From: Deltaproteobacteria bacterium
GTDB taxonomy: Bacteria; Myxococcota_A; UBA9160; SMWR01
Assembly: GCA_019310965.1 (NCBI GenBank)
Contig: JAFDDG010000009.1
Span: forward strand, 1 to 64,000
DNA: 64,000 nt
Direction: 5' to 3'
Part shown: positions 23,215-39,059 of the stretch, one piece after another
How the letters are laid out: every line of letters begins with the position of its first letter
How positions within the stretch are numbered: position 1 is the stretch's first letter
Program-made: the position numbers and the translations under genes
Notes under the pieces: generated by a model
The model's database searches: none
Seen by the model: only the letters and a program-made list of their open reading frames with translations
Told to the model about the DNA's origin: nothing

Positions 23215-24315
23215 TCACGGCTCGACCACGCTGCGTGCGAGTTCCCCGTCCTGAAGGGCTGCAAAGGCCTCGTTGACGCGCTCGAGCGGCAGCTTCTGGC
23301 TCACCAGCTTCTCGAGATTCAGGGCACCCTGCTGGTAGAGCCGCATGATGCGCGGGATGTCTCGCGCCGGAATGTTCTGCCCCCCCAGGCAGCCCAGCAA
23401 GCGCCGGTCCGAGAAGAGCGTGCGACTCGCGATCGTGATGGTCGCGCTCGGCGGCGGCGCCCCGACCATCACCGTCGTACCCCCCGGCCGCGTGGCCTCG
23501 AAGGCTTGCGCCAGAACCTCCGTCGAGCCGATCACCTCGAACGCATAGTCGACGCCACCGGGCGCCAGCTCCCGGATGGCCGGGGCCAGCTCGGTGCCCT
23601 GGCTCACGTGGAGGCATTCCGTGGCCCCCAGGTCCGAAGCCAGGTCGAGCTTCACGGCCTGGGTATCGCAGGCGATGATGCGCGCGGCCCCGGCGATGCG
23701 CGCCCCCTGGACGACGTTGAGCCCCACGCCGCCACAGCCGATCACCGCGACCGTCGCACCCGGCTTCACCTGGGCGATGTTGAGAGCGGCGCCGATGCCG
23801 GTCGTCACGCCGCAGCCGGCGAGGCAGGCGAGGTCGAGCGGGATGTCCCGATCGATCTTCACGAGCTGGGATTCGCGGACGACCGACAGCTCGGCGAGCG
23901 AGCCCGAGCCGACCATGGGGGTGATCACCGCACCGTCGAGCGACAGGCGCGTCGTGCCGTCGGCCATGCGCCCATACATATTGTGCGTGCGCGTTTCGCT
24001 CCAACAGTTCGTGATGTCACCGGAGCGGCAGTCGTCGCAGCTGCCACAGGGGCCGTACAGGGCGACCACGACCGCGTCGCCGACACTGACGCCTCGCACC
24101 CCCTCCCCCACCTCTTCGACGAGGCCGGCGCCCTCGTGGCCTAGCACCATGGGCGGCGTGGCGACGGGGCTCTCGCCTTCGATGACGTGGAGATCGGAGC
24201 GGCACACGCCCGAGGCGGCTAGCCGCACCACGACCTCACCGGCGTGAGGACTCTCGACGTCGAGCTCCTCGATGACAAGGGGCTTGCCTGTTTCGTGCAT
24301 CACGGCGGCGCGCAT
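23215..24315 (-). CDS. Zinc-dependent alcohol dehydrogenase (class III/NDMA-ADH-like MDR)
   Basis: 366 residues of the medium-chain dehydrogenase family. Catalytic zinc ligands are traceable (Cys38 in 'SGVCRSDLH', His60 in 'LGHEGAG', Cys in 'AGCGVTTG'). The structural zinc tetrad 'CGSCDDCRSGDITNC' is complete and the NAD(H) motif is 'VIGCGGVGLN'. It should oxidise a primary or secondary alcohol. It lies 74 bp downstream of the aldehyde dehydrogenase on the same strand, so the pair could convert alcohol to acid. The substrate is likely linked to the CoA-transferase/amidohydrolase cluster that diverges from this pair. Confidence 0.92.
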   Translation of the reverse strand: MRAAVMHETGKPLVIEELDVESPHAGEVVVRLAASGVCRSDLHVIEGESPVATPPMVLGHEGAGLVEEVGEGVRGVSVGDAVVVALYGPCGSCDDCRSGDITNCWSETRTHNMYGRMADGTTRLSLDGAVITPMVGSGSLAELSVVRESQLVKIDRDIPLDLACLAGCGVTTGIGAALNIAQVKPGATVAVIGCGGVGLNVVQGARIAGAARIIACDTQAVKLDLASDLGATECLHVSQGTELAPAIRELAPGGVDYAFEVIGSTEVLAQAFEATRPGGTTVMVGAPPPSATITIASRTLFSDRRLLGCLGGQNIPARDIPRIMRLYQQGALNLEKLVSQKLPLERVNEAFAALQDGELARSVVEP

Positions 24316-24389
24316 GGCGGAGGCTCCTGCTGAAAGATGGGAGGATCACGATTCCCTCGAAACGGGGGACTCTGCGGGCCGAGGCCGCA

Positions 24390-25877
24390 TCAGTGCAGAT
24401 CGATCCACGCGGTCTTCGTCTGCTGGTAACCGCGCAGACTCTCGAGGCCGGAGTCGCGACCGTAGCCCGAATCCTTGACGCCGCCGAAGGGCGCCGCCCA
24501 GTGGATCATGCGGTAGGCGTTGACCCATACGGCGCCAGCCTGGATGTCGCGAACGAAGCGGTGAGCGCGCTTCAGGTCGCACGTCCACACGCCACTGGCG
24601 AGCCCGTAGGGTGTGTCGTTCGCGATGGCGAGGGCCTCGTCGTCGTCTTCGAAGGGAATCGCGCACGTCACGGGACCGAAGATCTCCTCGCGGCACACGC
24701 GCATGTCGTTGTGTGCATCGCGAAAGAGGGTCGGGGCTGCGAAGTAGCCGTTTCCCAACGCGTCGCCCGGCGCAAAGTTGTCCGCGCCGAAGCGCGCACC
24801 GAAAACCAGCTCCGCGCCCTCCTTCTGACCGATCTCGACGTAGCGCTTCACCTTCTCCAACTGCTCGTGGAACGCGATCGGGCCCATGCTGGTGGAAGCA
24901 TCCAACGCATCGCCCAGGCGCACCGATGCCTCCACATGCTTCGCGATACGGTCAATCACTTCGTCGTAGATGGATGCGTGGATCAGGAGACGCGAGCCGG
25001 CCACGCAGACCTGCCCGGCACTGCCGGTGAACACCGCCTGCGTGCTTACGCCCGGAATGGCGCGATCGAGTTCGGCGTCGGCAAAAACGATGTTCGGAGA
25101 CTTCCCGCCGAGCTCGAAAGTCAGCTGCTTGAGGAGCGGCGCAGAGCGCTCGGTGATGATGCGGGCGGTTTCTCCCGAGCCAGTGAGTGCGATCTTGCGA
25201 ACGTCGGGATGGCGCACCAGCGCGTCGCCCACAACCTCGCCACGGCCCGAAACCACGTTGATCACGCCCGGTGGCATGCCGGCGGCGTCGAAGAGCTCGG
25301 CGATGGTGAGAATCGATGCCGCGGCCTGCTCGGCCGGCTTCAGCACGACGGTGTTGCCGGCGGCGAGCGCGGCACCCACCTTGGCGGCGAGAATCGCGAG
25401 CGGCGAGTTCCAGGGAACGATGATGCCGCACACGCCGATCGGCTCGTGGATGGTGAAGTTGAAGCTACCGGGGCTGATCTGCACCGTCTCGCCGTGCAGC
25501 TTGTCCGCGGCGCCGGCCCAGTAGTTCAACATCTCGCACACGGCGGGCAGGTCGCCCGCACTCACCTCGGCGATGGGCGAGCCATTGTCGCGGGACTCGA
25601 TCGTGGCGAGCTCTTCCGCGTGCTCAGCAACCTCCCGCGCAACACTGCGCAGATGCCCCGCGCGAGCCATTGCCGGCAATTGGCGCCACGGGCCCTCGAA
25701 GGCGCTGCGCGCGGCGGCGACGGCGAGCTCGACGTCGGCCGCATCGCCATCCGGCACCTCGATCCAGGCCTTCGCGTAGGAGGGTTCGATGCTCTCGAGG
25801 TAGTTGCCGTTCTGCGGCGGGACGCGCCGGCCATCGATCCAGTTGTCGATTCGATGCCCTTCGAGCAGCAGCGCCAT
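24390..25877 (-). CDS. NAD(P)-dependent aldehyde dehydrogenase
   Basis: 495 residues. Catalytic Cys is in 'GSAGQVCVAGSR', the general-base Glu in 'TFELGGKSPN', and the cofactor loops 'PWNSPLAILAAKVGAALAAG' and 'ALTGSGETAR' are intact. Two ATGs follow the site AAGGAGG; the second (25877) has optimal spacing of eight bases, while the first (25883) is too close. It probably oxidises the aldehyde produced by the neighbouring alcohol dehydrogenase. The 219-bp gap to the divergent CoA-transferase gene at 26097 must hold the promoters of both arms of the island. Confidence 0.94.
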   Translation of the reverse strand: MALLLEGHRIDNWIDGRRVPPQNGNYLESIEPSYAKAWIEVPDGDAADVELAVAAARSAFEGPWRQLPAMARAGHLRSVAREVAEHAEELATIESRDNGSPIAEVSAGDLPAVCEMLNYWAGAADKLHGETVQISPGSFNFTIHEPIGVCGIIVPWNSPLAILAAKVGAALAAGNTVVLKPAEQAAASILTIAELFDAAGMPPGVINVVSGRGEVVGDALVRHPDVRKIALTGSGETARIITERSAPLLKQLTFELGGKSPNIVFADAELDRAIPGVSTQAVFTGSAGQVCVAGSRLLIHASIYDEVIDRIAKHVEASVRLGDALDASTSMGPIAFHEQLEKVKRYVEIGQKEGAELVFGARFGADNFAPGDALGNGYFAAPTLFRDAHNDMRVCREEIFGPVTCAIPFEDDDEALAIANDTPYGLASGVWTCDLKRAHRFVRDIQAGAVWVNAYRMIHWAAPFGGVKDSGYGRDSGLESLRGYQQTKTAWIDLH

Positions 25878-26096
25878 CTGCATTTCCTCCTTGCGGCGAA
25901 CGTCTTCGACTTCGCCAGCCAGAGATCGTCGGCACGCGCGTCTGCCAGCAGCCGCGCGTGGCCTCGGACCCGCTTCGCCAACCACGATCTCACAAATGCA
26001 TGGTGTAGGGGAACCGGTCAGGCGGGTCGGCGCACATTTGAGCCCGCGGCGCACGGATTTCCGCCTTGGCCGCCGCGCAGTGCGTATCATGCCCGC

Positions 26097-27353
26097 ATGC
26101 CGCCCCAGGTGCTCGCCGGAGTCCGCATCGTCGAGGTGGCAATGTTCGCCCCCGACGCCGTGGGAATGCACCTCGCCGATCTCGGTGCCGAGGTCATCAA
26201 GGTCGAAGCGCCGGGGATCGGCGACCCGGCGCGCCAGCTCGGCAAGCCCTACCGCGGGGAGTCGCCTGCCACCCGCCGCTGGAATCGCGGAAAACGCAGC
26301 CTGACCCTCGATCTGCGCGCCGCTGCGGGAGCCGACGTCTTCCGAGACCTGATTCAAAGCTCCGATGCCGTGGTCGAGGGCATGCGGCCCGGGTCGCTGG
26401 CGCGGCGGGGCCTCGGCTACGAAGACCTGCTGGCACTCAACCCCTGCCTCGTCTTCGCCACGATCTCGGGCTGGGGTCAGAGCGGCCCCTACCGCGACCT
26501 CGGCTCGCACGGGCTGGCCTTCGACTCCTTCGCCGGGCTGGCGCCGCCGCGCCAGGTGGATGGGCGCGCCGCCCGCCCGAAGGGCCACGTATGGCAGGGG
26601 CTCGAGGCCGCGCCCCTCTACGCGGCACTCGCGATCGTGTCGGCCATCGTTCGTGCCCGCGCGTCGGGCATGCCCTCGCTCATCGAGGTGAGTCAGGCGG
26701 ACGCCGCAGCGACGTGGAACGGCTGGCGCATCGCTCACGCTGCCGCCGTCGCCGAACACGGCCGTGCTCCGAGCGACCCGGACGCCCGTGAGCTGGTCGA
26801 GGCCCTCGAGTCCTCGGCCGAGGGCGCCGGACACAGCGATCTGCCGGGAAGCGACGTCCGCTACCAGTACTACGAGGCACAAGACGGCAGCGTCCTGCTG
26901 ATGGCCACCGAGACGAAGTTCTGGGAGAATTTCTGCCGCGGCGTCGACCGGATGGATCTCTTCGAACGCTGGCCCGGCAGGCGACACGCCGACCACGACT
27001 ATGGGAACGACGCCCTGCGGGACGAGCTGACGAATCTCTTTGCGACGCGAACGCGGGCGGAGTGGCTGGTGTTCTTCATCGAGCACGACGTCGCGGGCGC
27101 GCCGGTCTACCGAGCGGGCGAGACCTTCGGCGACCCCCACTTCGAGTCGCGAGGCCTGTGGCTCGATCCACGAGTCCACGGCGTCTCCCTGCTGGGCTCG
27201 CCGGTGCGAGTGGACGCAGAGATCGCCGTCTCGGACCGCGCTGCACCCTCGAACGGCGCCGACTCGGATGCGGTGCTGCGCGACGTGCTCGGCTACGACG
27301 AGCCGCGCATCGCCGCGCTGCGCTCGAGTGGCGCGGTGGGGGGAGCGCAATGA
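26097..27353 (+). CDS. CaiB/BaiF (family III) CoA-transferase-like subunit lacking the catalytic Asp
   Basis: 418 residues with the family N-terminus ('GVRIVEVAMFAPDAVGMHLADLGAEVIKVE') and 'MRPGSLARRGLGYEDL'. Aligned with its neighbour, the segment that normally reads G-D-x3-G and carries the acyl-accepting Asp reads 'GLEAAPLYAA', so the Asp appears replaced by Leu. It ends in an ATGA overlap with a second, intact CaiB gene. The simplest reading is a heteromeric transferase with one non-catalytic subunit, as known for the benzylsuccinate enzyme BbsEF. It may otherwise bind CoA without catalysis. Confidence 0.88.
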   Translation: MPPQVLAGVRIVEVAMFAPDAVGMHLADLGAEVIKVEAPGIGDPARQLGKPYRGESPATRRWNRGKRSLTLDLRAAAGADVFRDLIQSSDAVVEGMRPGSLARRGLGYEDLLALNPCLVFATISGWGQSGPYRDLGSHGLAFDSFAGLAPPRQVDGRAARPKGHVWQGLEAAPLYAALAIVSAIVRARASGMPSLIEVSQADAAATWNGWRIAHAAAVAEHGRAPSDPDARELVEALESSAEGAGHSDLPGSDVRYQYYEAQDGSVLLMATETKFWENFCRGVDRMDLFERWPGRRHADHDYGNDALRDELTNLFATRTRAEWLVFFIEHDVAGAPVYRAGETFGDPHFESRGLWLDPRVHGVSLLGSPVRVDAEIAVSDRAAPSNGADSDAVLRDVLGYDEPRIAALRSSGAVGGAQ

Positions 27354-28570
27354 GCGGACCGCTGACCGGTGTGAGCATCCTCGCGGCCGAACAGATGCAC
27401 GCTCTGCCCCACGCCACCCAGCTGCTCGCGCTGTTGGGCGCTGCGGTGATCAAAGTCGAGCCTCTCGGAGGTGAAGCCGGTCGCTTCGGCAAGCCCACGG
27501 TGCGCGACGCCGACGAACGCGATACCGGCATGACCTTCGTGCGCAACAACCTCGGCAAGGCCAGCATCGCCCTCGACCTGAAGGCCGCCGCCGGCCGCGA
27601 GCTCTTCTTGAAGCTGGCCGGCACGGTCGACGCCGTGGCGGAGAACTTCCGCCCGGGCACGGCCGACCGGCTGGGCATCGGCTGGGACGCCGTGCACGAG
27701 CGCAATCCCGCGGCCATCTACGTCTCGGTCTCGGGCTTCGGCAACCGCAGCGAGCCCCCCAGCCCCTACCGCGAATGGGCCGCGTACGCACCCATCGTCG
27801 AGGGCATGGCGGGCCTCTACGAGTACAGCCGCGGCGGCGACGAGCCTCCGCAGCTCGCCCTCGCGGGCGCCCTCGGCGACACGGGACCGGGGCTCTACGC
27901 CGTCATCGGACTGCTGGCTGCGCTGCACGAGCGCAGCCGGACGGGCGTGGGGCGCTACGTCGACGTCTCCATGTACGATGCCATGATCGCCATCGCCGAC
28001 ATCGTGAATCCCGCCAGCATGGGAGCCGAGCCGAGCCGCATGCTCGACGGCATCGGCATTCTCCACGCGTTTCGCGCGCAGGACGGCTGGTTCAGCATCG
28101 AGGTGGTGCGGGAGCCCCACTTCCCGCGCTTCGCGGAGGCGGTCGGTCACCCCGAGTGGGTCGACGACCCGCGTCTTGCCACGCGCGAGGGCTGGAGTGA
28201 GCAGATGGAGAGCGTGATCCGCCCCGGTGTCGAGGCCTGGGCGGCCTCGAAGACGAAGCTCGAGGCCAGCGCGGAGCTGGCGAGGAGAGGCGTCGCTGCC
28301 GGGCCCGTGAACACGGCAGAGGACATCCGCCGCGATCCACACGTGCGGGCCCGCGACTTCGTCCACAGCTTCGCGGGCGCGGACGGCGGCAAGGAGGTGG
28401 CGGTGGTCGGCAACCCCGTCGCATTTCGCGGAGGACCCGGCGAAGACGCTGCACCCCGGGCGGCGCGTTGGCCGGTCCTGGCGGGAGACACGACGAGCAT
28501 CTTGTCCGGGCGCCTCGGTCTGGACGCGAACGAAATAGAAGAGCTGAGAGCACAAGGAATCATCACATGA
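27350..28570 (+). CDS. CaiB/BaiF (family III) CoA-transferase, catalytic
   Basis: 406 residues, ATG overlapping the previous stop and preceded by GGGAG. N-terminal 'MSGPLTGVSILAAEQ', 'AENFRPGTADRLGIG', and the active-site Asp segment 'GALGDTGPGLYAVIGLLAAL' followed by 'RYVDVSMYDAM'. It moves CoA between carboxylic acids through an aspartyl-CoA anhydride, with no ATP use. Coupled on both sides: to the Asp-less paralogue upstream and to an amidohydrolase downstream (ATGA at 28567). It probably activates or recycles the acid that the amidohydrolases use or make. Confidence 0.92.
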   Translation: MSGPLTGVSILAAEQMHALPHATQLLALLGAAVIKVEPLGGEAGRFGKPTVRDADERDTGMTFVRNNLGKASIALDLKAAAGRELFLKLAGTVDAVAENFRPGTADRLGIGWDAVHERNPAAIYVSVSGFGNRSEPPSPYREWAAYAPIVEGMAGLYEYSRGGDEPPQLALAGALGDTGPGLYAVIGLLAALHERSRTGVGRYVDVSMYDAMIAIADIVNPASMGAEPSRMLDGIGILHAFRAQDGWFSIEVVREPHFPRFAEAVGHPEWVDDPRLATREGWSEQMESVIRPGVEAWAASKTKLEASAELARRGVAAGPVNTAEDIRRDPHVRARDFVHSFAGADGGKEVAVVGNPVAFRGGPGEDAAPRAARWPVLAGDTTSILSGRLGLDANEIEELRAQGIIT

Positions 28571-30036
28571 GCGAAGCACTCACCCCCGAGCAGATCCGAG
28601 AACGCATCGGTCACCCGGTGATCGACACCGACGGGCACACGACGGAATTCGTTCCGGCTCTCGCCGAATACCTGAAGGAGGTCGGGATCAGCACCGACTT
28701 CAACGAGCTGTTCAGGGGCGTCCTCGGCTCCGTCGCGGACTGGTACGAGATGACGCCGGATGAGCGCCAGCGCAAACACATCACCAAGCCACCGTGGTGG
28801 ACGCGACCCATGCGCCGCACCCGCGACCGGGCCGCCGCGTCGTTCCCGCGCTACCTGCGGACCCGCATGGACGAGTTCGGCTGCGACGTGTCGCTCGTGT
28901 ACCCCAGCACCGCGCTCGGCTTCTTTCAGCTTCGCTCCGACGAGCTTCGCCGCGGGGGCTGCCGCGCCCTGAATCGCTACCACCGGGACGCCTTCGACGG
29001 CTGCACCGACCGGCTGATCCCCGTGGCCGCGGTCCCGACGCACACGCCTCAGGAAGCCATCGAAGAGCTCGAGTACGCCGTCGTCGACCTCGGCTTCCGC
29101 GCCGTCGTCATCCCTAGCTACGTTCCACGGCCGGTGCCCGGCTTCGAACAGGCCGACGACGACGTGCGGCGCTGGGCCTTCTGGCTCGACACCTACGGCA
29201 TCGACAGCGCCCACGACTACGATCCCTTCTGGCAGCGCTGCCTCGAGCTCGGGGTGTCGCTGGGCACCCACAGCCAGGGCAACGGCTGGGGCAGCCGCCG
29301 CTCTCCCTCGAACTGGGTCTACAACCACATCGGCCACTTCGCGGCCTCCGGTGAGGCGCTCTGCAAGTCGCTCTTCCTCGGCGGCGTGACGCGTCGCTTC
29401 CCGGACCTGCGCGTGGCCCTGTTGGAAGGCGGCGTGGGGTGGGCGTGCAGTCTCTTCGGCGACCTCATCGAGCACTGGGAGACGCGGAACATCCGCACGA
29501 TCCGGGAAGAGCTCGACCCGCAGCTCCTCGACCAGGCGGAGTTCCAGCGTCTCGCCGCGGAGTACGGCCCGGTCGGCCCGGCCACGCGCGAGCGAATCGA
29601 GGGAGCCGTGCTGACGACGCCCGGTCACCAGAAGGGCCGGCCAAGCGACGACGAGCTCGATGAGTTCAAGGCCCTCGACCTGCGCGGCCCCGAGGACATC
29701 CCGGACCTCTTCCTGCCCAACTTCTACTTCGGCTGCGAGCCCGACGACCCCATGAACGTGCTCGCCTTTCAGGAGGGCCTCTGGCCCTATGGCGCCACCT
29801 TCAACGCCGTGTACGGCTCCGACTTCGGACACTTCGACGTGCCCGACATGACAGAGGTGCTCCAAGAGGCCTACCGGCCGGTCCAGAAGGGCACGCTGAA
29901 GCCCGAGCACTTCAGGGACTTCGTGTTCGCGAACCCCGTCCGCTTCTACACCGACACCAACCCCGGATTCTTTGCCGACACCGTAGTCGCCGATGACGTG
30001 CAGCGCCTGATCGGACCCGCTCGAGACGACGGCTGA
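28567..30036 (+). CDS. Amidohydrolase-2 (ACMSD-like) family protein, long form
   Basis: 489 residues of the TIM-barrel amidohydrolase-related family (ACMSD, gamma-resorcylate decarboxylase, ring-opening hydrolases). The N-terminal metal motif reads 'DTDGHTTE' (~20-27), in the D-x-H-x2-E form of this group, and the C-terminal Asp is in 'YGSDFGHFD'. At 489 residues it is about 100 longer than its paralogues, with extra segments at the N-terminus and around 350-410. It is coupled to the CoA-transferase by ATGA and followed 14 bp later by another amidohydrolase. Substrate unknown; hydrolysis or decarboxylation both possible. Confidence 0.88.
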   Translation: MSEALTPEQIRERIGHPVIDTDGHTTEFVPALAEYLKEVGISTDFNELFRGVLGSVADWYEMTPDERQRKHITKPPWWTRPMRRTRDRAAASFPRYLRTRMDEFGCDVSLVYPSTALGFFQLRSDELRRGGCRALNRYHRDAFDGCTDRLIPVAAVPTHTPQEAIEELEYAVVDLGFRAVVIPSYVPRPVPGFEQADDDVRRWAFWLDTYGIDSAHDYDPFWQRCLELGVSLGTHSQGNGWGSRRSPSNWVYNHIGHFAASGEALCKSLFLGGVTRRFPDLRVALLEGGVGWACSLFGDLIEHWETRNIRTIREELDPQLLDQAEFQRLAAEYGPVGPATRERIEGAVLTTPGHQKGRPSDDELDEFKALDLRGPEDIPDLFLPNFYFGCEPDDPMNVLAFQEGLWPYGATFNAVYGSDFGHFDVPDMTEVLQEAYRPVQKGTLKPEHFRDFVFANPVRFYTDTNPGFFADTVVADDVQRLIGPARDDG

Positions 30037-30050
30037 GGAGCAGGAACGCA

Positions 30051-30920
30051 ATGAAGACCGCGGACACCATCGACTACTGGGCGAACTCGTTTCTCCCCAA
30101 CCGCGAAGCGCTCTGGAACGCGGCGCTCGAAGCCCAGGGCATCCCGATCAAGATCCGAAGCGACCCGGCAGACAGCTTCGCCGACCCCGAAGCGATGATC
30201 ACGCGCATGGACGAGCTCGGGATCTCGACCCTGATCCTGCCGACCTGCGACCTTCCCGATCGCACCGGCCCCTACGACTTCGAGCCGATCGCGATGCAGC
30301 CCGAAGAGACCGAGCAGCTCGCGAAGTCTTTCCCGCATCGCTTCGTTGCCGAGTGGAGCATCGATCCCAACTCCGGCATGGCGGGCGTCGAGCGCGCCAG
30401 AGAGATGGCTGCCCATCCCTGGGTCGTCGCTCTGCATCTCCACACCCACAGCTTCGACCGGCCCTTCGATTCGCCCGACTACTATCCATACTACGCACTC
30501 GCCAGCGAACTCGGCCTGCCCTTCGTCATGCAGGCAGGGACTTCGGGCGGACGACTCCCGAGCGCCTGCGGCCAGCCGATTGGCATCGACCGGCCTGCCA
30601 TCTACTTCCCGGCAGTCGACTTCATCCTGTCTCATACCGGCTGGCCGTGGGTCGAAGAAGCGGTCGCGATGGCCCTCAAGTTCTCGAACGTGTACCTCGG
30701 AACGGCCTCGTTTCCGCCTCGGCGCTGGAATCAGTCCCTGAAGGACTTCATTCGAGGTCCGGGCCGGCGGAAGGCGCTCTTTGGGACGAGCTTTCCGACG
30801 GTGGGCCATCGCCATGCTCTCGGACAGCTCGGCGAGCTCCAGCTCTCGGAAGAGGCCACCGCGAACCTTCTCGGAGCGAATGCCCGCCGCATCTTCAAGC
30901 GCTTGGACAGCACGACCTAG
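30051..30920 (+). CDS. Amidohydrolase-2 family protein with altered metal site
   Basis: 289 residues, the short paralogue. The middle of the barrel is preserved ('HLHTHSFDRPF', 'LPFVMQAGTS', 'FILSHTGWPWVEEAVAMA'). The N-terminus, however, reads 'DTIDYWANSF' instead of D-x-H-x2-E, and the C-terminal motif reads 'FGTSFPT' where an Asp is expected. It may bind one metal or none, act with a different mechanism, or be a partner subunit of the long form encoded 14 bp upstream. It starts at ATG 30051 behind GAGGAG. Confidence 0.82.
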   Translation: MKTADTIDYWANSFLPNREALWNAALEAQGIPIKIRSDPADSFADPEAMITRMDELGISTLILPTCDLPDRTGPYDFEPIAMQPEETEQLAKSFPHRFVAEWSIDPNSGMAGVERAREMAAHPWVVALHLHTHSFDRPFDSPDYYPYYALASELGLPFVMQAGTSGGRLPSACGQPIGIDRPAIYFPAVDFILSHTGWPWVEEAVAMALKFSNVYLGTASFPPRRWNQSLKDFIRGPGRRKALFGTSFPTVGHRHALGQLGELQLSEEATANLLGANARRIFKRLDSTT

Positions 30921-30967
30921 ACCCGTCGATTCAAATTCCCGCGAATCTGTGATTGAATCAGGCAGAA

Positions 30968-31055
30968 GGGGACGGTGTTGCCTTCTTGCCTTTCCAGGGC
31001 CTGTCGTCTGAGAAGGCGATCCGGGTGAGAAAGGCAAGAAGGCAACACCGTCCCC
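30968..31055. repeat. 88-bp palindromic element with perfect 27-bp arms (REP/BIME or MITE-like)
   Basis: The left arm (30968-30994) begins GGGGACGGTGTTGCCTTC and the right arm (31029-31055) is its exact reverse complement; 34 nt separate them. The element fills the gap between two amidohydrolase genes. Perfect long arms of this kind suggest a mobile REP/BIME or miniature inverted-repeat element, or an unusually strong transcript hairpin. I saw no second copy in this window. Confidence 0.8.
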
Positions 31056-31121
31056 GCCAGATCGATGCTGCTCGAGCTGCGTTCTGTTGGGCCGGGGCCG
31101 AGCAAGAGGAGAAGAACGAGC

Positions 31122-32252
31122 ATGACCGCGTCTGCACCGAGTCGCATCATTTCCGCCGATTGTCACATCAACGAACCGCCCCACGTCTTCGATGGCGTGC
31201 CGGCGGCCCTGAAGGATCGCGCTCCCAAGATGTTGCGCGGTGCAGACGGTGGAGATGGCTGGAGCTTCGATGGAAAGCCGCCCGGCCGCACCTTCGGGAT
31301 CGAGGCGACGGCGGGGCGCGCGGCGGGCGACAAGAAGATGTCCGGTCTGCGTTTCGATGAGATCCTGCGGGGCAACTATGAGGGCGCGGCCCACGTGGAG
31401 GACATGCGGACCGATGGCGTCGATGTCTCCATCGTGTATCCGGCGTATGCCGCCCAGTCCTATGCCGAGCCGGATCGCGAGCTCGCCCTGGCTTGCATGC
31501 GCTCCTACAACGACTGGATGCTGAGTGAATTTCAGGCTGCGGCGCCGGAGCACCTCCTCGGCCTTCCCATGCTTCCCGTAGACGATGGCATGGAGGTCTG
31601 CCTGGCCGAGTTCGAGCGTTGTCTCGAGGCTGGCGCGAAGGCGGGCTTCCTTCCCGGGCTTCCGACACGTCCCTATCACGACCCGTATTACGATCCGCTC
31701 TTTGCACGGGTCTCCGAAGCGAGAATGCCTCTGACTTTCCATCGCACCTTCGGCGGAAGGCCGGCCGCGTCGGATTGGGACGAACTCATCGGCATGAAGA
31801 TCACGGCCGCGGGAACGGTCGAGCGATTCTTTTCATCCGTGCGACCCTTCAGCTACATGGTCTATGGCGGTGTGTTCGAACGGCACCCCGGCCTCAAGAT
31901 CGTCGCAGCCGAAGTGAATTTCGGGTGGCTTCCCTTCTGGGTGCAGACCATGGAGCAGAATTTCACAGTTCGTTCGGGGCTGGGGGACAGCACCGTGGCA
32001 ACCCGGAAGCGACCCACCGATTACATGGGAGAGAATCTCTTCGTCACGATCATCGACGACAAGGTCGGCTTCGATCTCGTTGCCAGCTACCCCTGGCTTG
32101 CGGATACGGCGCTGTGGTCGTCCGACTACCCGCACAGCGTGTCGGCCTGGCCCAACTCGCGGAAGGTCCTGACCGAGCTCGGCTCGGCGCTCACCTCAGA
32201 GCAGCTCGAGAAGATCGCGCACGGCAATGCGGCACGGATCTATGGAGTCTGA
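31122..32252 (+). CDS. Amidohydrolase-2 (ACMSD-like) family protein
   Basis: 376 residues from ATG 31122, preceded by a GAGGAG site. N-terminal metal motif 'SADCHINE' (D-x-H-x2-E form), mid-barrel 'MPLTFHRTFGG', and the C-terminal Asp in 'LWSSDYPHS', so a full metal site is expected. It is the closest in layout to the convergent paralogue at 32934. A small companion protein gene begins four bases after its stop, probably co-translated. Hydrolase or decarboxylase role is inferred from family only. Confidence 0.88.
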   Translation: MTASAPSRIISADCHINEPPHVFDGVPAALKDRAPKMLRGADGGDGWSFDGKPPGRTFGIEATAGRAAGDKKMSGLRFDEILRGNYEGAAHVEDMRTDGVDVSIVYPAYAAQSYAEPDRELALACMRSYNDWMLSEFQAAAPEHLLGLPMLPVDDGMEVCLAEFERCLEAGAKAGFLPGLPTRPYHDPYYDPLFARVSEARMPLTFHRTFGGRPAASDWDELIGMKITAAGTVERFFSSVRPFSYMVYGGVFERHPGLKIVAAEVNFGWLPFWVQTMEQNFTVRSGLGDSTVATRKRPTDYMGENLFVTIIDDKVGFDLVASYPWLADTALWSSDYPHSVSAWPNSRKVLTELGSALTSEQLEKIAHGNAARIYGV

Positions 32253-32256
32253 AGCC

Positions 32257-32805
32257 ATGGAAGAGGTGAAAGTCGGAATCGTCTATCACGTGCAGCCGGA
32301 GCCCCCGGATCCAGAGAATTGCCAGTGGCTCGAGGCCGGCGCTGTGAACTTCGGCCTCGAGTATCGAGTCGTAGACCCCGAGCGGTTGGCCAAGGCCTAC
32401 GCGGGGAGCGAGGAGGACCTGGCCGAGGTGGAGGCCCACTCACCCGAGGGAGGATTCTATGGCTCCGGTGTATCGATCCACGTCGTGGGCGCCGCCGATG
32501 GTCATGAATACCTGCGCTTCGATGCCTTCGACGATGATCCGCACTACCACTACGTGCGGCCGACGGGCGACCACAACCACTGGGTGCCCTTCGATCCGGT
32601 CGCGGGCGGCGACATGCTGGCCTTCACCATCCGCAGCCTGCGCGAGCGCCTCGGCCCGATGCTGAGCGAGGCGGGGGGCGACGAGGTCGCCGCTCGCCTG
32701 GACCCCGCCGAGCAGGGACCGCCCATCGACGAGGTCAAACGCCTGGCCTACGAGATCCGCGACCGGCAGCGCGCTGCGGCGGCGGCCGGTGGCGGCCGCC
32801 GCTGA
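32257..32805 (+). CDS. Conserved small protein associated with the amidohydrolase genes
   Basis: 182 residues from ATG 32257, with GGAG from the end of the preceding gene nine bases upstream; an in-frame ATG at 32242 would overlap that gene by 11 bases. It is rich in acidic residues and His, with a 'DDDPHYHYVRPTGDHNHW' cluster that could bind a metal. I do not recognise a named family. No signal peptide or membrane segment. Its tight linkage to the amidohydrolase at 31122 suggests a role in the same pathway or as an accessory subunit. Confidence 0.75.
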   Translation: MEEVKVGIVYHVQPEPPDPENCQWLEAGAVNFGLEYRVVDPERLAKAYAGSEEDLAEVEAHSPEGGFYGSGVSIHVVGAADGHEYLRFDAFDDDPHYHYVRPTGDHNHWVPFDPVAGGDMLAFTIRSLRERLGPMLSEAGGDEVAARLDPAEQGPPIDEVKRLAYEIRDRQRAAAAAGGGRR

Positions 32806-32933
32806 CCGCCGAGAGGCTCTGCGCACCACACCGGCGGGCCGCCGCTTCCGAATTCGTGCAGACGCCCCCGCGAGACAGACGATGGGCGGCACGGGCCGTC
32901 TCATCACCGAGGACGAGCCGCCCGTGTCGCGGC

Positions 32934-34103
32934 TCACTTGCCGGCCGGTGCCTCGATCTCGTAGAGCTTCGCCGCGTTCTCCCAGAGCAGGCGGTGCCGC
33001 ACTTCTTCGCTCAACGATCCCAGGCTCGATTCGATCGTCTCGCCGACTTCGTCGCCGTAGATCGACGTGGGGTGGGGAAAGTCCGTCTCGAACATGATGT
33101 TCTCGGCCCCCACACGTTCGATGGTCTCGGCGGTGATGGTCTCGAACCAGCAGCACGCGTAGATCTGGCGCTTGAAATACTCGCTCGGCAGCATCTTGAA
33201 GTCGGAGCGCTCCTTGCTGACAGCCATGGCCTTGAATTGGTAGTCGGCGCACTGGAGCAGGAAGGGGATCCACCCGACCCCGCTCTCCACGGAGACGAAC
33301 CGGAGCCTGGGAAATCGCTCGAGGATGCCGCTGAAGAGCAGGTCGAGCACATGCGCGCCGTTGGTCATGAAGATCTTTGCGCCCGCCCGCGCGGAGGTGG
33401 CCGCATAGCCCTCGACCTCGACCCGCTCCTCCGAGAATTCGTCACCGAAGTCGCCGCTGCCGATGTGGAAGCTGACCGGGAGCTTGCAGTCCTGCGCGGC
33501 CGCCCAGATCGGATCCCAATGACGGCTGGCCAGCACAGGCAGCCCGAAGCTCTGGGGCTCGCCCGTGAAGACCACTCCCCGATGGCCGAGGGCGGCACAG
33601 CGCTGGATCTCCGCGACCGCTGCCGACACGTCCCAATAGGGCAACGTCATGACCGGGATCAAGCGTTTCCTGTCTGCAGAGGACCAATCGATCAAAAAGT
33701 CGTTGTAGGCACGCACACAGGCGAGCTTCGCCTCCGCATCGTCGAGCCGCCCAAAGACCTGATTCCCGAAGCCGCCGACGTTGGGATAGAGAACGCCCGC
33801 CCAGATGCCCAGCTCGTCCATGTAGCGCAGCCGCGCGGCGGCATCGTAGGAGCCCGGGTGGGCGTCTTCATAGCGCGGCGGGTGACTGGGATAGGCGTCC
33901 TTCCAGCCCGCCACGGCCGTGATGCCCACGGAGTTGATCCACTCGTCGCCGATGTACCAGGCCTGTTCCTGCTTCTCCGGATCCCACTCCACTCGCGGAA
34001 CCCTGTCCTTTAGCCGCGCCGGGACTCGGCTCGTCCAGAGGTCGGGCGCCTCGGTCACATGGGTGTCGGAGTCGATGATCGTGTAGGCAGGTGAGTCGGT
34101 CAT
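32934..34103 (-). CDS. Amidohydrolase-2 (ACMSD-like) family protein
   Basis: 389 residues; ATG 34103 has AGGAG nine bases upstream, whereas the open frame beyond it lacks coding character. N-terminal metal motif 'DSDTHVTE', mid-barrel 'LPVSFHIGSGDFG', 'FVSVESGVGWIPF' and the C-terminal Asp in 'MFETDFPHP' are all present. It lies on the opposite strand to the other three paralogues and convergent with the companion gene. Its promoter is in the long gap that also holds a 166-bp palindromic element. Confidence 0.88.
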   Translation of the reverse strand: MTDSPAYTIIDSDTHVTEAPDLWTSRVPARLKDRVPRVEWDPEKQEQAWYIGDEWINSVGITAVAGWKDAYPSHPPRYEDAHPGSYDAAARLRYMDELGIWAGVLYPNVGGFGNQVFGRLDDAEAKLACVRAYNDFLIDWSSADRKRLIPVMTLPYWDVSAAVAEIQRCAALGHRGVVFTGEPQSFGLPVLASRHWDPIWAAAQDCKLPVSFHIGSGDFGDEFSEERVEVEGYAATSARAGAKIFMTNGAHVLDLLFSGILERFPRLRFVSVESGVGWIPFLLQCADYQFKAMAVSKERSDFKMLPSEYFKRQIYACCWFETITAETIERVGAENIMFETDFPHPTSIYGDEVGETIESSLGSLSEEVRHRLLWENAAKLYEIEAPAGK

Positions 34104-34308
34104 GCGGTGCGCTCCTGTGTTCCAACCGATGCTGTCCCAACTGGGACGATTCGGCCACCATCCTGGGGTCGAGCGCCGTGGCTCACAGGCAACCTGGGAC
34201 GACCTCTCGGTTTTCCAGAACCGCCGCGGGCTCCCCCGGTCGCGGCCTCCGTCGGCTCGACGGCAGACCGGGGCCGACCCGCAGGCCCATCGCCACGGCT
34301 GGCGGGGC

Positions 34309-34474
34309 CTAGAGGCCATCTCATAAACCCCTCGGTCGCCAGACACCTGCCTTCGACCCGATCTCTGCGTTGCGAAATCTCGCCGGTGCGACGGCCATGG
34401 CTGCGATTTCGCGCCTTGATCTCGGGCCGAATTCAGGCGCCTGGCTCGGTCGGGGTCTATGAGATGGCCTCTAG
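34309..34474. mobile_element. 166-bp palindromic element with 17-bp perfect terminal inverted repeats (MITE-like)
   Basis: CTAGAGGCCATCTCATA at 34309-34325 is exactly inverted at 34458-34474 (TATGAGATGGCCTCTAG). Inside, the two halves continue to match imperfectly (CCCC, GCCAG, CCTG, TTCG, CCCGA, GCGAAATC blocks), so the whole unit can fold as one long hairpin. It has no coding capacity. Size, perfect ends and internal symmetry suggest a non-autonomous mobile element. Confidence 0.75.
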
Positions 34475-34777
34475 AGCGTATCGTGGACTCGACCGCGCGA
34501 GATCTGCCGCAAATCCTCGACCCCGGCCGAACGGGTAGACTCGAGCTCGCTCTGCCGGTGGGCAGCGGCTCGGCTTGGGCCCGCTGCACGCTGTGATCAC
34601 CACGACCGAGAGCGGGGTCGCGGTGCGGTCGATCGCGTGTCGGGGAGGAATCGTGAGCAGATCTGGCAAAGCGATCGGTGGTCGCTTGCGACGCGCGGCA
34701 GCGACCGGGTGGCCGTGGGTGAGAGCGGGGAGACACAAGGCACGCCGTGTCCTCGAACGGCTCGAGGGCACTGCGCC
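34475..34777. other. Gene-free 303-bp interval upstream of a CoA-transferase gene
   Basis: No frame here shows conserved coding. The frame of the following CoA-transferase is open back to 34637, but those residues do not resemble the family N-terminus. The interval presumably carries the promoter of the CoA-transferase/ligase/thiolase genes. I see no clear operator. Confidence 0.4.
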
Positions 34778-35992
34778 GTGAGCCTGGTCATGCAGGGAAT
34801 CCGCGTCATCGAGGTGGCGCAGTACGTCTACGTTCCGGTAGCGACCTCGGTGCTCGCCGAGTGGGGTGCCGACGTCATCAAGGTCGAGCACCCGACCCAC
34901 GGCGACGCCTACCGAGGCCTGCGGCGCACGGGGAACCTCGCGATCGCGGGCCCCGTCAACTACGCAATCGAGCACGCCAACCGCGGCAAGCGCAGCATCG
35001 GCATCGATGCCGCGAACGCGGAGGGCCGAAGGATCCTCGGGGAGCTGCTGAAGACCGCCGACGTCCTCGTCACGAACCTGCTGCCCGCATCCCGCTCTCG
35101 CCTGCACCTCGAGATCGACGACGTGCGCGGCGACAATCCCTCCATCATCTATGCGCGGGGAACAGCGTTGGGGGAGCGAGGGCCCGAGCGCAACCGGGGG
35201 GGCTTTGACCACGCAACCTTCTGGGCGCGCGGCGGGAGCCAGTTCGGCGCCACGCCCGCTGATGCCGATCGCCCCTCTCCAATGCCGAGCGGCGCCTACG
35301 GGGACAGCGCGGCGGGGTTGGCACTCGCGGGAGGCATTGCGGCCGCACTCCTGGCGCGGGAGCGGACGGGGAAGCCGCCGGTCGTCGATCTATCGCTGCT
35401 GGGGATGGGAATGTGGTCGATGGCCTCTGCGATTGCAGGCGCACTGATGCAGGGCGAATCGGCGCGCCCCATGGATCGGATTCCACCGAGCAACCCGCTT
35501 GCGGGCACCTATCGGTCGCAGGACGGCCGATGGATCGTGCTGGGCTGCCTCCAGGGATTCTCGCAGTGGCCTGCATTCTGCCGTTGTGTCGGACGCCTCG
35601 AGTGGATCGAAGACGCGCGCTTCGCCAGCGCGGAGGCCTTCGCTGCCCATGGAACGGACTGCGCGGGGCTCCTCGACGCGCTCTTCGCCTCCGCCCCGCT
35701 CCGCCACTGGCAGGAAACCCTCTCGGGCCTGGATGCGGTCTGGGAGACGGTCCAGGACACTCTCGAAGTCGCACGAGACCCTCAGGCCATCGCCAACGGC
35801 TACCTTGCGCAGGTCGAGGCTGCGGACGCATCGACCTTCGAGCTGGTGGCGAGCCCGATTCAGTTCGACGAGTGCCCGCCCCAGCCGCGCCGCGCACCCG
35901 AAGCGGGCCAGCACACGGAGGAGATCCTTCTGGAGCTGGGCCTCGACTGGGACGAGATCAACGACCTCAAGGCCGCCAGCGCCATCAATTGA
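34778..35992 (+). CDS. CaiB/BaiF (family III) CoA-transferase
   Basis: 404 residues. GTG 34778 is chosen because GAGGG lies nine bases upstream; ATG 34790 lacks a site. N-terminal 'GIRVIEVAQYVYVPVATSVLAEWGADVIKVE' and the catalytic segment 'GAYGDSAAGLALAGGIAAAL' with the Asp are intact. It starts a second, probably co-transcribed set with a PaaK-type ligase, a thiolase-like protein and a DUF35 protein. It differs from the 27350 enzyme in the loop after the active site, so probably uses a different acid pair. Confidence 0.92.
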   Translation: MSLVMQGIRVIEVAQYVYVPVATSVLAEWGADVIKVEHPTHGDAYRGLRRTGNLAIAGPVNYAIEHANRGKRSIGIDAANAEGRRILGELLKTADVLVTNLLPASRSRLHLEIDDVRGDNPSIIYARGTALGERGPERNRGGFDHATFWARGGSQFGATPADADRPSPMPSGAYGDSAAGLALAGGIAAALLARERTGKPPVVDLSLLGMGMWSMASAIAGALMQGESARPMDRIPPSNPLAGTYRSQDGRWIVLGCLQGFSQWPAFCRCVGRLEWIEDARFASAEAFAAHGTDCAGLLDALFASAPLRHWQETLSGLDAVWETVQDTLEVARDPQAIANGYLAQVEAADASTFELVASPIQFDECPPQPRRAPEAGQHTEEILLELGLDWDEINDLKAASAIN

Positions 35993-36093
35993 TGCCTGGG
36001 TTTCCAGTAGACTGCAGCAACCGCAGTCCACGGCGAAGAACTCGCATCCGATGACCACACCGGGGCGATCGCCGCCCACGCCGAGGCCCCCAA

Positions 36094-37482
36094 ATGTCGC
36101 AGGGAATCCGCAGACCCCACGAAGCCGTCGACTACGAATATCTGACGCGCGCCTACCCGCCGCCGCCGGAGTATTTCGAGAAGGCGTACCTGGAGACGCC
36201 CGAGGAGATCGAAGCCTGCCAGCTGGCTCGCCTCAAGGAGCGTGCGCTGACGGCCTACAGCATCCCCTTCCATCGCAAGCGCTGGGATGCGGAGGGATTC
36301 GATCCACGCAGCCTCGAAAGCCTCGAGGATCTCTGGCGCGCCCCGTTCTACACCGTCGACGACATTCGCAAGAGCATCGAAGAGCATCCGCCACTGGGCG
36401 ACTACCAGGTCGCCCGCCCCGAAGACGCACGCCGGGAACCGATGCGGCTCTACATGTCCGGCGGCACGACCGGCAACTCGCGTCCCACTCTATACACGCA
36501 ATGGGATCGCGAAGTGGGCGCCGTCCTGACGGCTCGCGCTCTCTACATGCAGGGCATCCGACCGGGTGACACGGTGCTCAATGCATGGTCCTACTCGACC
36601 CACAACGGCGCCTTCTCCTTCGACGAGGCGCTCCACCGCTGGCTGAACTGCGTCATCCTCACGACGAGCACCGGCACGGTGACCAGCAGCCGCCGCCAGA
36701 TCGAGCTCGCGCTGCAATACGGGGCGAAGGCCATCCTCACGACCGGCGACTACCTGCTGCGCCTTGCCGACGTCGCGCAAGAGATGGGGGTCGACCCCAA
36801 GAACGATCTCAAGCTCTGCGCGCTGCCCAACATCGGCGACCGCGAGCTCCTCGAGGCAACCTTCGGCGCCCCGAATTATGCCTCGTACGGCTTCCACGAG
36901 GTCCAGTGGGTAGCCTCCGAGTGCCCGGCCAGACAGGGTCTCCACATCTTCGAGGACGCCTTCATCGTGCAGGTCGTCCACCCCGAGACCGGCGAGAGGC
37001 TGCCCGACGGTGAGCTCGGCGCACTCGTCGTGACCGAGCTCTATAAGACGGGAAGTGCACAGTTCCGATACAACATCATGGACCTCGCCTACCTGATGCC
37101 GCGAGAGCGCTGCGCATGCGGGAGCTGGCTTCGGCGGATGGGACCCTTCTCTGGGCGCGGCGACAATATGGTGAAGCTGCGCGGCGTGAACGTCTGGCCC
37201 GAGGCGCTTGGCGAGATCGTCACGCTGCACGAGAGGGTGAGCGACGACTACTTCGTGCGCGCCATTCGCAGCGAGAATCACGACGAGATGATCGTCGCGG
37301 TGACGAGCTCCGCGCCATCCAGTGAATTCGAAGGCCTTCGTTCCGAACTCGAGAGCCTGCTCAAGGAGAAGATCGGCGTGCGCTTCGAGGTCGAGGTCCA
37401 TCCGCTCGGGGCCCTCGATGCGCTCACGGAGATCCACAGCTCGCCGAAGCCCAAGCGCTTCCGGGACGAACGGGGTGAGTAG
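36094..37482 (+). CDS. Phenylacetate-CoA ligase (PaaK)-type acyl-CoA ligase
   Basis: 462 residues of the ANL superfamily. The adenylation P-loop appears as 'MSGGTTGNSRPTLYT'; later motifs are 'YGFHEVQWVASEC' and 'GDNMVKLRGVNVWPEALGE', typical of PaaK and related aryl/acyl-CoA ligases, with a small C-terminal domain ending in a Lys-rich segment. A Cys pair (CAC in 'RERCACGSW') could contribute to zinc binding as in some PaaK relatives. It should form an acyl-CoA from an aromatic or other bulky acid, ATP and CoA. Twelve bases separate it from the thiolase-like gene. Confidence 0.9.
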   Translation: MSQGIRRPHEAVDYEYLTRAYPPPPEYFEKAYLETPEEIEACQLARLKERALTAYSIPFHRKRWDAEGFDPRSLESLEDLWRAPFYTVDDIRKSIEEHPPLGDYQVARPEDARREPMRLYMSGGTTGNSRPTLYTQWDREVGAVLTARALYMQGIRPGDTVLNAWSYSTHNGAFSFDEALHRWLNCVILTTSTGTVTSSRRQIELALQYGAKAILTTGDYLLRLADVAQEMGVDPKNDLKLCALPNIGDRELLEATFGAPNYASYGFHEVQWVASECPARQGLHIFEDAFIVQVVHPETGERLPDGELGALVVTELYKTGSAQFRYNIMDLAYLMPRERCACGSWLRRMGPFSGRGDNMVKLRGVNVWPEALGEIVTLHERVSDDYFVRAIRSENHDEMIVAVTSSAPSSEFEGLRSELESLLKEKIGVRFEVEVHPLGALDALTEIHSSPKPKRFRDERGE

Positions 37483-37494
37483 GAGGGACGAAGC

Positions 37495-38652
37495 GTGAGC
37501 CTGCGAGACCAGGTGGCGATCGTCGGCATCGGCTGCACCGAGTTCTCGAAGGACTCCGGGGTGAGCACGCTCACGCTCGCCGCTCGCGCAATTCTCGCTG
37601 CAGTCGAAGACGCGGGTGTGCAGGCCTCGGAACTCGACGGGATCGCGACCTTTCGAGTCGGAGACTCGGTGCCTCCCGCCATCCTGGCACAGTCTCTCGG
37701 AATCAGGGACCTCCGGTATTTCGTCGACCAATTCGGCGGCGGCAGCGTCTCCCACTCGATCGTGGGCCAGGCGGCGCTCGCGATCCACGCGGGCATTGCA
37801 GAGACCGTCGTCTGCTATCGCGCGCTCAACGCGCGCTCCGAGTTTCGGATGGGGGGCACCGGCCGGCCACCCGTCGATGCCATCGAGACCCAATACCAGG
37901 CCCCCTTTGGCTATTTCACGCCGCCACAACAATTCGCCATGGCAGCGCGAGCGCACATGGAACGTTACGGCACGTCCGCCGAGCAATTGGGCGCCGTGGC
38001 CGTCCAGCAACGCGCAAACGCGAGCCTCAACGAACGCGCGATGATGCGCAAGCCGATCAGCCTCGACGACTATCTCGCATCGCGTTGGATCGTCGAGCCC
38101 TTCCGGCTCCTCGATTGCTGCCTCGAGACGGACGGCGCGGTGGCACTGCTTCTCACCAGCGCGGAGCGGGCCCGCGACCTCCGCCAGGATCCAATCCTGA
38201 TCAGTGGCGTCACGTGGGGCTCGGGGCAGACGCTCTATTCGAATCAACAGCCGGATTCCACACGCACGTCCGCCGCCGACATGGCCCCCCGCCTCTTCGA
38301 GATGGCGGGGGTCGGGCCGCATGACATCGATGTGGCCGAGCTCTATGACTGCTTCAGCTACAGCGTGCTCGTTCAGCTCGAGGACTACGGATTCTGCAAG
38401 AAGGGCGAAGGCGGCGCCTTCGTCGAGAGTGGCGCCACAGCGCTCGGCGGATCGCTCCCAGTCAACACCCACGGCGGTTTTCTCTCGGAGGGTTATGTCC
38501 ACGGGCTGAACCATGTCTACGAGGCGGTATCGCAGCTGCGCGGGGACGCGGGCGAGCGGCAGGTCGAGAACGCGCAGGTCGCACTCTCGGCCGCTCAGCC
38601 GGGCTACGTCTCCGGCAACACGTCCGCGCTCGTGCTCAGGAGGGACTCGTGA
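37495..38652 (+). CDS. Thiolase-fold protein without the nucleophilic Cys (Ltp2/SCP-x aldolase-like)
   Basis: 385 residues, GTG start. The fold is that of SCP-x/lipid-transfer thiolases ('VAIVGIGCTEFSK' start, 'NTHGGFLSEGYVHGLNHVYEA' near the C-terminus). Where thiolases carry the acyl-accepting Cys, the segment reads 'FGGGSVSHSIV' with no Cys. Tyr residues stand in 'AELYDCFSY' and 'SEGYVHG', positions like the catalytic Tyr pair of the steroid side-chain aldolase Ltp2. With the coupled DUF35 gene this points to a retro-aldolase complex that splits a beta-hydroxyacyl-CoA. A classical thiolase is less likely. Confidence 0.88.
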   Translation: MSLRDQVAIVGIGCTEFSKDSGVSTLTLAARAILAAVEDAGVQASELDGIATFRVGDSVPPAILAQSLGIRDLRYFVDQFGGGSVSHSIVGQAALAIHAGIAETVVCYRALNARSEFRMGGTGRPPVDAIETQYQAPFGYFTPPQQFAMAARAHMERYGTSAEQLGAVAVQQRANASLNERAMMRKPISLDDYLASRWIVEPFRLLDCCLETDGAVALLLTSAERARDLRQDPILISGVTWGSGQTLYSNQQPDSTRTSAADMAPRLFEMAGVGPHDIDVAELYDCFSYSVLVQLEDYGFCKKGEGGAFVESGATALGGSLPVNTHGGFLSEGYVHGLNHVYEAVSQLRGDAGERQVENAQVALSAAQPGYVSGNTSALVLRRDS

Positions 38653-39059
38653 GCGACGCGATTCCCAAGCCACTGCCGCACCCCGATCGGGACTCGGAGC
38701 CGTATTGGAAGGCCCTCTCGCAGGGCAGATTCCAACTCCAACGCTGCGGATCCTGCAACGCGCTGCGCTGGCCACCACGCGCCCTCTGCAACCGCTGCGT
38801 GGGCTTCGAATTCGAATGGGTGGATGTCGCGACGACTGGACGGATCGTGAGCTGGACTCGAACCCATCAAGTATTTGCCCCCGCCTATCGGGGGGAGGTT
38901 CCCTACACCACGGTCGCGGTCGCACTCGACGCGCAAGAAGACATCTCGATGATCGGGGGCTGGTCGACAGACCGCGACCCGCGAGCGGGTGAAACGGTCC
39001 GCATCAGGCTCGTCGATGCCCCAGAAGGATTCAAGCTTCCCTGCTGGGAACCAGCGTAA
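38649..39059 (+). CDS. DUF35 OB-fold protein with zinc ribbon
   Basis: 136 residues; its GTG overlaps the thiolase-like stop (GTGA). An N-terminal helix is followed by a zinc ribbon ('RCGSC...LCNRC') and an OB-fold ('TTGRIVSWTRTHQVF', 'YTTVAVALDAQ'). DUF35 proteins pair with thiolase-fold enzymes (HMG-CoA synthase/thiolase in archaea, ChsH2 with Ltp2 in steroid degradation) and act as scaffold or CoA-binding subunit. The tight coupling supports the same partnership here. Confidence 0.92.
   Translation: MSDAIPKPLPHPDRDSEPYWKALSQGRFQLQRCGSCNALRWPPRALCNRCVGFEFEWVDVATTGRIVSWTRTHQVFAPAYRGEVPYTTVAVALDAQEDISMIGGWSTDRDPRAGETVRIRLVDAPEGFKLPCWEPA

Follow-up and report, generated by a model that had tools for sequence, protein, structure and literature searches.

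An island of PF04909, CaiB and thiolase-like genes in a Myxococcota genome: a candidate CoA-dependent catabolic pathway with oxygenase-like components

Gene content of the island

This work deals with a gene island at positions 23215 to 39059 of a 64,000-nucleotide stretch of the genome of an uncultured Myxococcota bacterium (contig JAFDDG010000009.1), hereafter the window, in which dehydrogenases, enzymes of coenzyme A (CoA) chemistry and a thiolase-like protein are encoded next to four members of the amidohydrolase 2 family PF04909. The genome comprises 4.66 Mb in 158 contigs, of which C78 (67.5 kb) is represented for the most part by the window, and the island is bounded by the genes for a chorismate synthase (22028-23125) and an acyltransferase (from 39188). 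Judging from their ligand residues, some of the genes labeled as hydrolases seem rather to encode components of an unusual metal-dependent oxygenase.

The island begins on the minus strand with a zinc alcohol dehydrogenase (ADH; 23215-24315; Pfam PF00107/PF08240), for which the NCBIfam matches were class III-like and under the cut-offs, and an aldehyde dehydrogenase (ALDH; about 24390-25877; PF00171, 6e-161). The plus strand then encodes the family III CoA-transferases CaiB1 (about 26097-27353) and CaiB2 (27350-28570), both matching PF02515, of which CaiB1 lacks an Asp that is aligned in CaiB2. These are followed by AHY_A (28567-30036), a candidate subunit of a dinuclear oxygenase; AHY_B (30051-30920), a protein of PF04909 fold; AHY_C (31122-32252), a candidate AibH1-like partner; and a DUF7700 protein (32257-32805; PF24777). 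AHY_D (32934-34103) is again located on the minus strand, whereas CaiB3 (about 34778-35992; PF02515), a PaaK-like acyl-CoA ligase (36094-37482), a thiolase-fold candidate retro-aldolase (37495-38652) and its DUF35 partner, a zinc ribbon/OB-fold protein (38649-39059; PF12172/PF01796), are on the plus strand. The ligase was recognized by profile and sequence matches, but its score against TIGR02155 (188.9) did not reach the cut-off of 646.3 bits, and it is hence referred to only as PaaK-like. Overlaps of 4 bp were found for CaiB1/CaiB2, CaiB2/AHY_A and the thiolase-like/DUF35 pair. Gene starts were set from the reading frame and inspection of ribosome sites. Between 24390 and 27353, frames of 986 codons are open on both strands, and the parts matching Pfam were taken as the ALDH and CaiB1 genes. 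The original prediction had listed ADH, ALDH, three CaiB, four PF04909, PaaK-like, thiolase-fold and DUF35 genes between 23.2 and 39.1 kb, and all of them are present; it had overlooked the DUF7700 gene, and ADH, ALDH and AHY_D belong on the minus strand. In the island genes that were scanned with Pfam and NCBIfam, neither an acyl-CoA dehydrogenase nor a hydratase family was detected.

Metal ligands and catalytic residues

AHY_A to AHY_D all exceed the Pfam cut-off for PF04909, a family that contains hydratases and carboxylase/decarboxylase-type enzymes (PMC10811679), and AibH2 and SfbO are described as related monooxygenases (PMC10401708, PMC10811679). AibH2 hydroxylates 2-aminoisobutyrate at the beta carbon and has the reported ligands D25, H27, H211, E265, D337 and H340, whereas its partner AibH1 binds one zinc, with the ligands present but without the extra acid of binuclear members (Asp342 in AibH2) (PMC7782822). 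For PtmU3, a diiron monooxygenase activity on a diterpenoid-CoA has been described, with hydroxylation at C-5 (PMC10127204). In alignments, the six ligands of the AibH2/PtmU3 type (D-x-H, H, E, D-x-x-H) were identified in AHY_A, AHY_C and AHY_D. The seventh, acidic site is occupied by Asp in AHY_A, by Val in AHY_C and by Thr in AHY_D. Among relatives, it is Asp in all 28 PF04909 proteins of type c2 and Glu in all 12 of type c9, and Val in 18 of the 20 members of the AHY_C cluster, the other two being truncated at this site. AHY_C and AHY_D are not classed as dinuclear on these alignments because the seventh acid is missing. The two decarboxylases that were aligned (gamma-RSD and ACMSD) have a His at the site of the Glu ligand.

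In phmmer searches against PDB, AHY_C and AHY_D were nearest to DitZ (3e-34 and 3e-43, respectively) and PtmU3 (9e-30 and 1e-34), as compared to 2e-9 and 3e-13 for the best decarboxylase, and AHY_A is more remote (DitZ 6e-9, PtmU3 5e-7). The six ligands are common to PtmU3, DitZ, AHY_C and AHY_D, but the relationship is distant (E 1e-29 to 1e-43 for AHY_C and AHY_D) and PtmU3 is biosynthetic; an enzyme activity of DitZ was not found in the literature searched. The original prediction had assigned hydrolytic or decarboxylative cleavage to the four amidohydrolases. In that form this is not supported, given the dinuclear-oxygenase ligand set in three of the four, AHY_A having all seven residues and AHY_B none, and in view of this pattern a hydrolase or decarboxylase function as the only role of the four proteins was demoted to a rival explanation.

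In related loci, the gene for c2 overlaps that of AHY_C by 4 bp (L105, L116 and L121) or is separated from it by 4 bp (L107). As the seventh acid is present in c2 and missing in AHY_C, and the genes overlap or lie 4 bp apart, this pair, by its residues, is taken to repeat the AibH2/AibH1 split. Within the window, AHY_A would be the candidate seven-residue partner of AHY_C. A function of AHY_B as oxygenase was ruled out, since it has none of the ligands: the corresponding positions hold Asp-x-Trp, Gln, His and Ser/Gly, and many other residues are invariant. Its model is a TIM barrel, for which the nearest solved fold is 3irs, itself uncharacterized. Conceivably, AHY_B might act as a LigI-like lactonase.

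The best alignment of the thiolase-like protein was to 6ok1 (5e-86), which we take, from its residue numbers, to be TcLtp2. The sites of the TcLtp2 and CtSal residues are occupied by Y284-D-C286-F and Y334 in the window protein, and these are invariant in the four aligned sequences. TcLtp2 is reported to use Tyr294 and Tyr344, and CtSal Tyr302 and Cys304 (PMC12329534). The protein had been described as Cys-less, which is true of the thiolase nucleophile but not of the YDCF motif, where C286 is present. It shares with Sal and the Ltp2-ChsH2 steroid side-chain aldolases the nucleophile-free thiolase fold, the DUF35 partner and a Tyr/Cys plus a second Tyr, and is a candidate retro-aldolase of the Sal/Ltp2 type. 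In contrast to these enzymes, the scanned island genes did not include a MaoC hydratase partner, the gene is linked to PF04909 oxygenase candidates, and the score for PRK07855 (Ltp2-like) was 401.1 and did not reach the 469-bit cut-off, whereas a paralogue on contig C55 passes with 539.5. The benzoylsuccinyl-CoA thiolase BbsAB is likewise a thiolase-like/DUF35 pair with CoA-transferases nearby, but the match is weak and far under the NCBIfam cut-off.

Conservation of the linkage in other genomes

Matches to AHY_B (1e-30) were present in 25 of 97 genomes, source genome included, and 15 other genomes had at least 50% identity across the whole or part of the protein; the sole genome of the same genus among the 97 had no match. 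Linkage was analyzed in 49 contigs, composed of 46 loci with at least 47% AHY_B identity (from 80 loci, one genome per species) and 3 contigs of relatives. Many of the 49 are from closely related metagenome-assembled genomes, so that the counts are not 49 independent events. A PaaK-like gene (>45% identity) was found in 47 of them, on the same strand as AHY_B in all 47 and at most 300 bp away in 38; of the other two, L128 begins within AHY_B, and the contig of L125 measures 4.5 kb. AHY_B and PaaK are the most conserved pair of the island, and their distances correlate (r 0.89, n 46, 0 of 999 permutations), although plain shared descent would give the same. Further co-members are AHY_C (22 contigs), DUF7700 (20), the thiolase-like protein (10), DUF35 (10) and ALDH (7; 54 to 62% identity in related operons), and more rarely CaiB3 (4, beside PaaK), ADH (3) and CaiB1 (1).

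Full operons were found in Actinomycetota. L105 and L113 encode, in the same direction, c2, AHY_C, a short-chain dehydrogenase/reductase (SDR), ALDH, the thiolase-like protein, DUF35, PaaK, DUF7700, TetR, AHY_B and an ADP-forming acyl-CoA synthetase (Pfam scan done on the L113 genes), and the same order was found in L109, L110 and L112 up to the contig ends. The L113 contig is titled Bifidobacterium breve, but its operon resembles Acidimicrobiia contigs, and the record label is probably wrong. The cultured Yinghuangia strain with L116 has ALDH, thiolase-like, DUF35, c2, AHY_C, PaaK, AHY_B, DUF7700, synthetase and ADH genes, and nearly the same set is present in Yinghuangia L121, with ADH terminal in both. 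The original prediction had named a lack of conserved gene order in relatives as a refutation, and the linkage was found to be conserved, including in a distant phylum. Because the set recurs across phyla, the co-occurrence of these genes exceeds chance.

In five loci without a PF04909 oxygenase match (L068, L086, L088, L089 and L114), a cytochrome P450 gene is found upstream of AHY_B. These P450s form one group, with 75 to 79% identity to that of L114, and it looks as if they had been exchanged into the slot of the PF04909 oxygenase. Over the 49 loci, the PF04909 type occurs without a P450 in 29 and a P450 without the PF04909 type in 7, with 4 loci having both and 9 neither (Fisher p 0.025, kinship ignored).

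A set of 30 loci was obtained by a search for DUF7700 in relatives, own genome included. In 24 of these, a PF04909 gene of the AHY_A, AHY_C, AHY_D, c2 or AHY_B type is located within the 1.5-kb flanks, always on the same strand and at a distance of 8 to 243 bp. In another set of 30 loci, which overlaps this one in part, AHY_B-like, DUF7700 and AHY_A-type genes occur together in 4. Of 282 genomes of the phylum, 31 had a match to the domain, whereas all 14 control genomes had none. An AlphaFold model with a pLDDT (predicted local distance difference test) of 93.3 had no Foldseek match in PDB at E 0.001 or better, and the best VIA result (Z 5.0, root-mean-square deviation 3.8 over 104 residues) is within usual noise. 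The idea that DUF7700 is purely oxygenase-associated was weakened by divergent members, which are fused to a class I/II aminotransferase in 5 of 5 long open reading frames scanned (L251, L253, L254, L256 and L257). In a literature search that had subscription journals outside its reach, no paper was found on DUF7700, nor one that joins three or more of the subjects Myxococcota, amidohydrolase, CaiB and DUF35; a broader combination of subjects gave 3 titles, apparently unrelated.

The source genome has 33 PF04909, 56 CaiB and 17 DUF35 matches, and because it is so rich in these families, less weight can be given to their co-occurrence within this genome alone. Of the 29 PF04909 genes outside the window, 5 are at most 3 kb from a CaiB gene, as compared to an expectation of 1.95 (p about 0.04; no significance with limits of 5 or 8 kb). 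For 2 of the 29, a CaiB and a DUF35 gene are both found within 4 kb, where 0.07 would be expected (p about 0.003). The islands on C142 and C55 both combine DUF35, thiolase-like and AHY_D-type genes with a fused double CaiB, and similar themes were seen on C144, C39, C52 and C27. Of the seven tandem or fused CaiB pairs, six (L196, L197, L198, L199, L207 and window positions 26097-28570) have an Asp in one copy only at the GDTGPG site of CaiB2, a count from which L208 was excluded as its genes are divergent. By analogy with formyl-CoA transferase, this Asp would be catalytic, and such pairs are possible enzyme/pseudoenzyme heterodimers.

A predicted pathway and its alternatives

Gene content, linkage and ligand and catalytic residues were read from the sequence, and from these we infer which reactions take place and in what order, how the subunits pair and what the substrate is. 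With a probability slightly below one half (about 0.48), the island would encode an aerobic, CoA-dependent, retro-aldol catabolic pathway with an AibH1H2-like heteromeric oxygenase, the substrate probably being a bulky carboxylic acid whose branched skeleton resembles that of a terpenoid or steroid. The oxygenase (AHY_C with AHY_A here and with c2 in relatives) would use O2 to hydroxylate an unactivated C-H bond, ADH (SDR elsewhere) and ALDH would convert the alcohol into a carboxylate, the CoA thioester would come from the PaaK-like ligase, the CaiB transferases or both, and the thiolase-like/DUF35 pair would cleave the beta-hydroxyacyl-CoA; AHY_B and DUF7700 would be additional components. 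An equally drawable order places ALDH and PaaK after the cleavage, acting on the aldehyde product as in bile-acid side-chain loss. The presence of an oxygenase, ADH/SDR, ALDH and a ligase in a single operon would fit the oxidation of a methyl group to an acid, as in the aib cluster; in sterol side chains, this oxidation is performed by P450s. Of the original prediction, the activation with CoA, the dehydrogenase chemistry and the retro-aldol cleavage are supported, and the hydrolytic or decarboxylative role of the four amidohydrolases is not. A close precedent is the Rhodococcus aib cluster for 2-aminoisobutyrate monooxygenase, which also includes a dehydrogenase and ALDH (PMC7782822) next to a seven-residue and a six-residue PF04909 protein. 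The island differs from it by the CoA ligase, CaiB, retro-aldolase candidates, AHY_B and DUF7700, and by the lack of a visible Rieske/reductase pair.

Several observations weigh against this pathway. A Rieske gene neighbors 90% of AibH2-like genes (PMC10401708), but no Rieske protein or reductase was found among the Pfam-scanned or annotated genes of the window and related loci (part of the neighbors scanned), save an FMN (flavin mononucleotide) reductase in L116. The notion that six ligands make an oxygenase was dropped, as AibH1 carries them with one zinc. In 9 of the 13 loci with both c2 and AHY_C, the genes are separated and on opposite strands, and 4 loci have both a PF04909 type and a P450. 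The AHY_D-type paralogues beside CaiB, thiolase-like and DUF35 genes of the same genome have Thr or Val at the seventh site (C142, C52, C117, C144 and C55), with Asp in C39. AHY_A-type paralogues adjoin a VOC (extradiol-dioxygenase-like) gene in C94 (L214) and C6 (L213), an arrangement that would suit a hydrolase too. It is conceivable, if unlikely, that the pathway uses the PF04909 proteins as mononuclear enzymes, be they hydrolases, decarboxylases or hydratases such as LigJ, the AHY_D type hydrating its substrate to the beta-hydroxyacyl-CoA. The missing seventh acid in AHY_C and AHY_D, the AHY_D types that are the lone PF04909 proteins with CaiB, thiolase-like and DUF35 in C142 and C55, and the hydratases and decarboxylases known from the family are in line with this, whereas the His of both aligned decarboxylases, the many orders of E-value by which DitZ and PtmU3 are nearer, and the seven residues of AHY_A and c2 are not. 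For AHY_D or AHY_C, the role may be mononuclear, be it that of a hydratase, a hydrolase, a decarboxylase or an inert partner.

The oxygenase may also work after CoA activation, beta-hydroxylating the acyl-CoA and replacing dehydrogenase and hydratase ahead of the retro-aldol step. The ligase in the same operon and the lack of acyl-CoA dehydrogenase and hydratase families among the scanned island genes would agree with this order, which is nevertheless quite unlikely: an acyl-CoA dehydrogenase adjoins the Yinghuangia cluster L116, where ordinary dehydrogenation is possible (a further difficulty for the proposed pathway), the ADH/SDR of the operons better match oxidation of a free alcohol, and the C-5 attacked by PtmU3 is only presumably beta to the thioester. 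The diterpenoid-CoA substrate of PtmU3 (PMC10127204) and the beta carbon targeted by AibH2 (PMC7782822) speak in its favor. If true, acids with a quaternary alpha carbon, which are barred from beta-oxidation, would become degradable. AHY_A, the only seven-residue member of the window, and CaiB2 were found in none of the 49 contigs, and CaiB1 in one, so that these contigs show no linkage of AHY_A to the core, which also counts against the proposed pathway. This, together with the different mixing of modules in paralogous islands, would fit chance neighborhood of a conserved core (AHY_B, PaaK, thiolase-like, DUF35, DUF7700, AHY_C and ALDH) and a separate set (ADH, CaiB1-CaiB2 and AHY_A). It appears improbable, as CaiB1 adjoins PaaK in L072/L103 and AHY_A-type genes are paired with DUF7700 in relatives.

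Beyond the proposed pathway itself, a seven-residue PF04909 subunit, an AibH1-like partner, the ligand-free AHY_B type and DUF7700 might form an oxygenase of new composition, tied to CoA ligation and a Sal/Ltp2-type retro-aldolase, that Myxococcota and Actinomycetota would use for acids that beta-oxidation cannot start; this more far-reaching proposal is doubtful. If true, DUF7700 would gain its first functional context. The genome and its relatives hold dozens of amidohydrolase 2, CaiB and thiolase/DUF35 genes without an assigned role, some of which could be reread as dinuclear-oxygenase subunits in CoA-dependent pathways, provided that the ligand split is borne out. The cultured Yinghuangia strains offer an organism for testing the oxygenase function. 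As to neighboring genes, the AHY_A-type gene of C94 is also near genes for MaoC, an AMP ligase and a luciferase-like monooxygenase. Downstream of the island, a methyltransferase-like stretch was noticed by eye at 40448-40733; its frame breaks off, and it is possibly a decayed gene.

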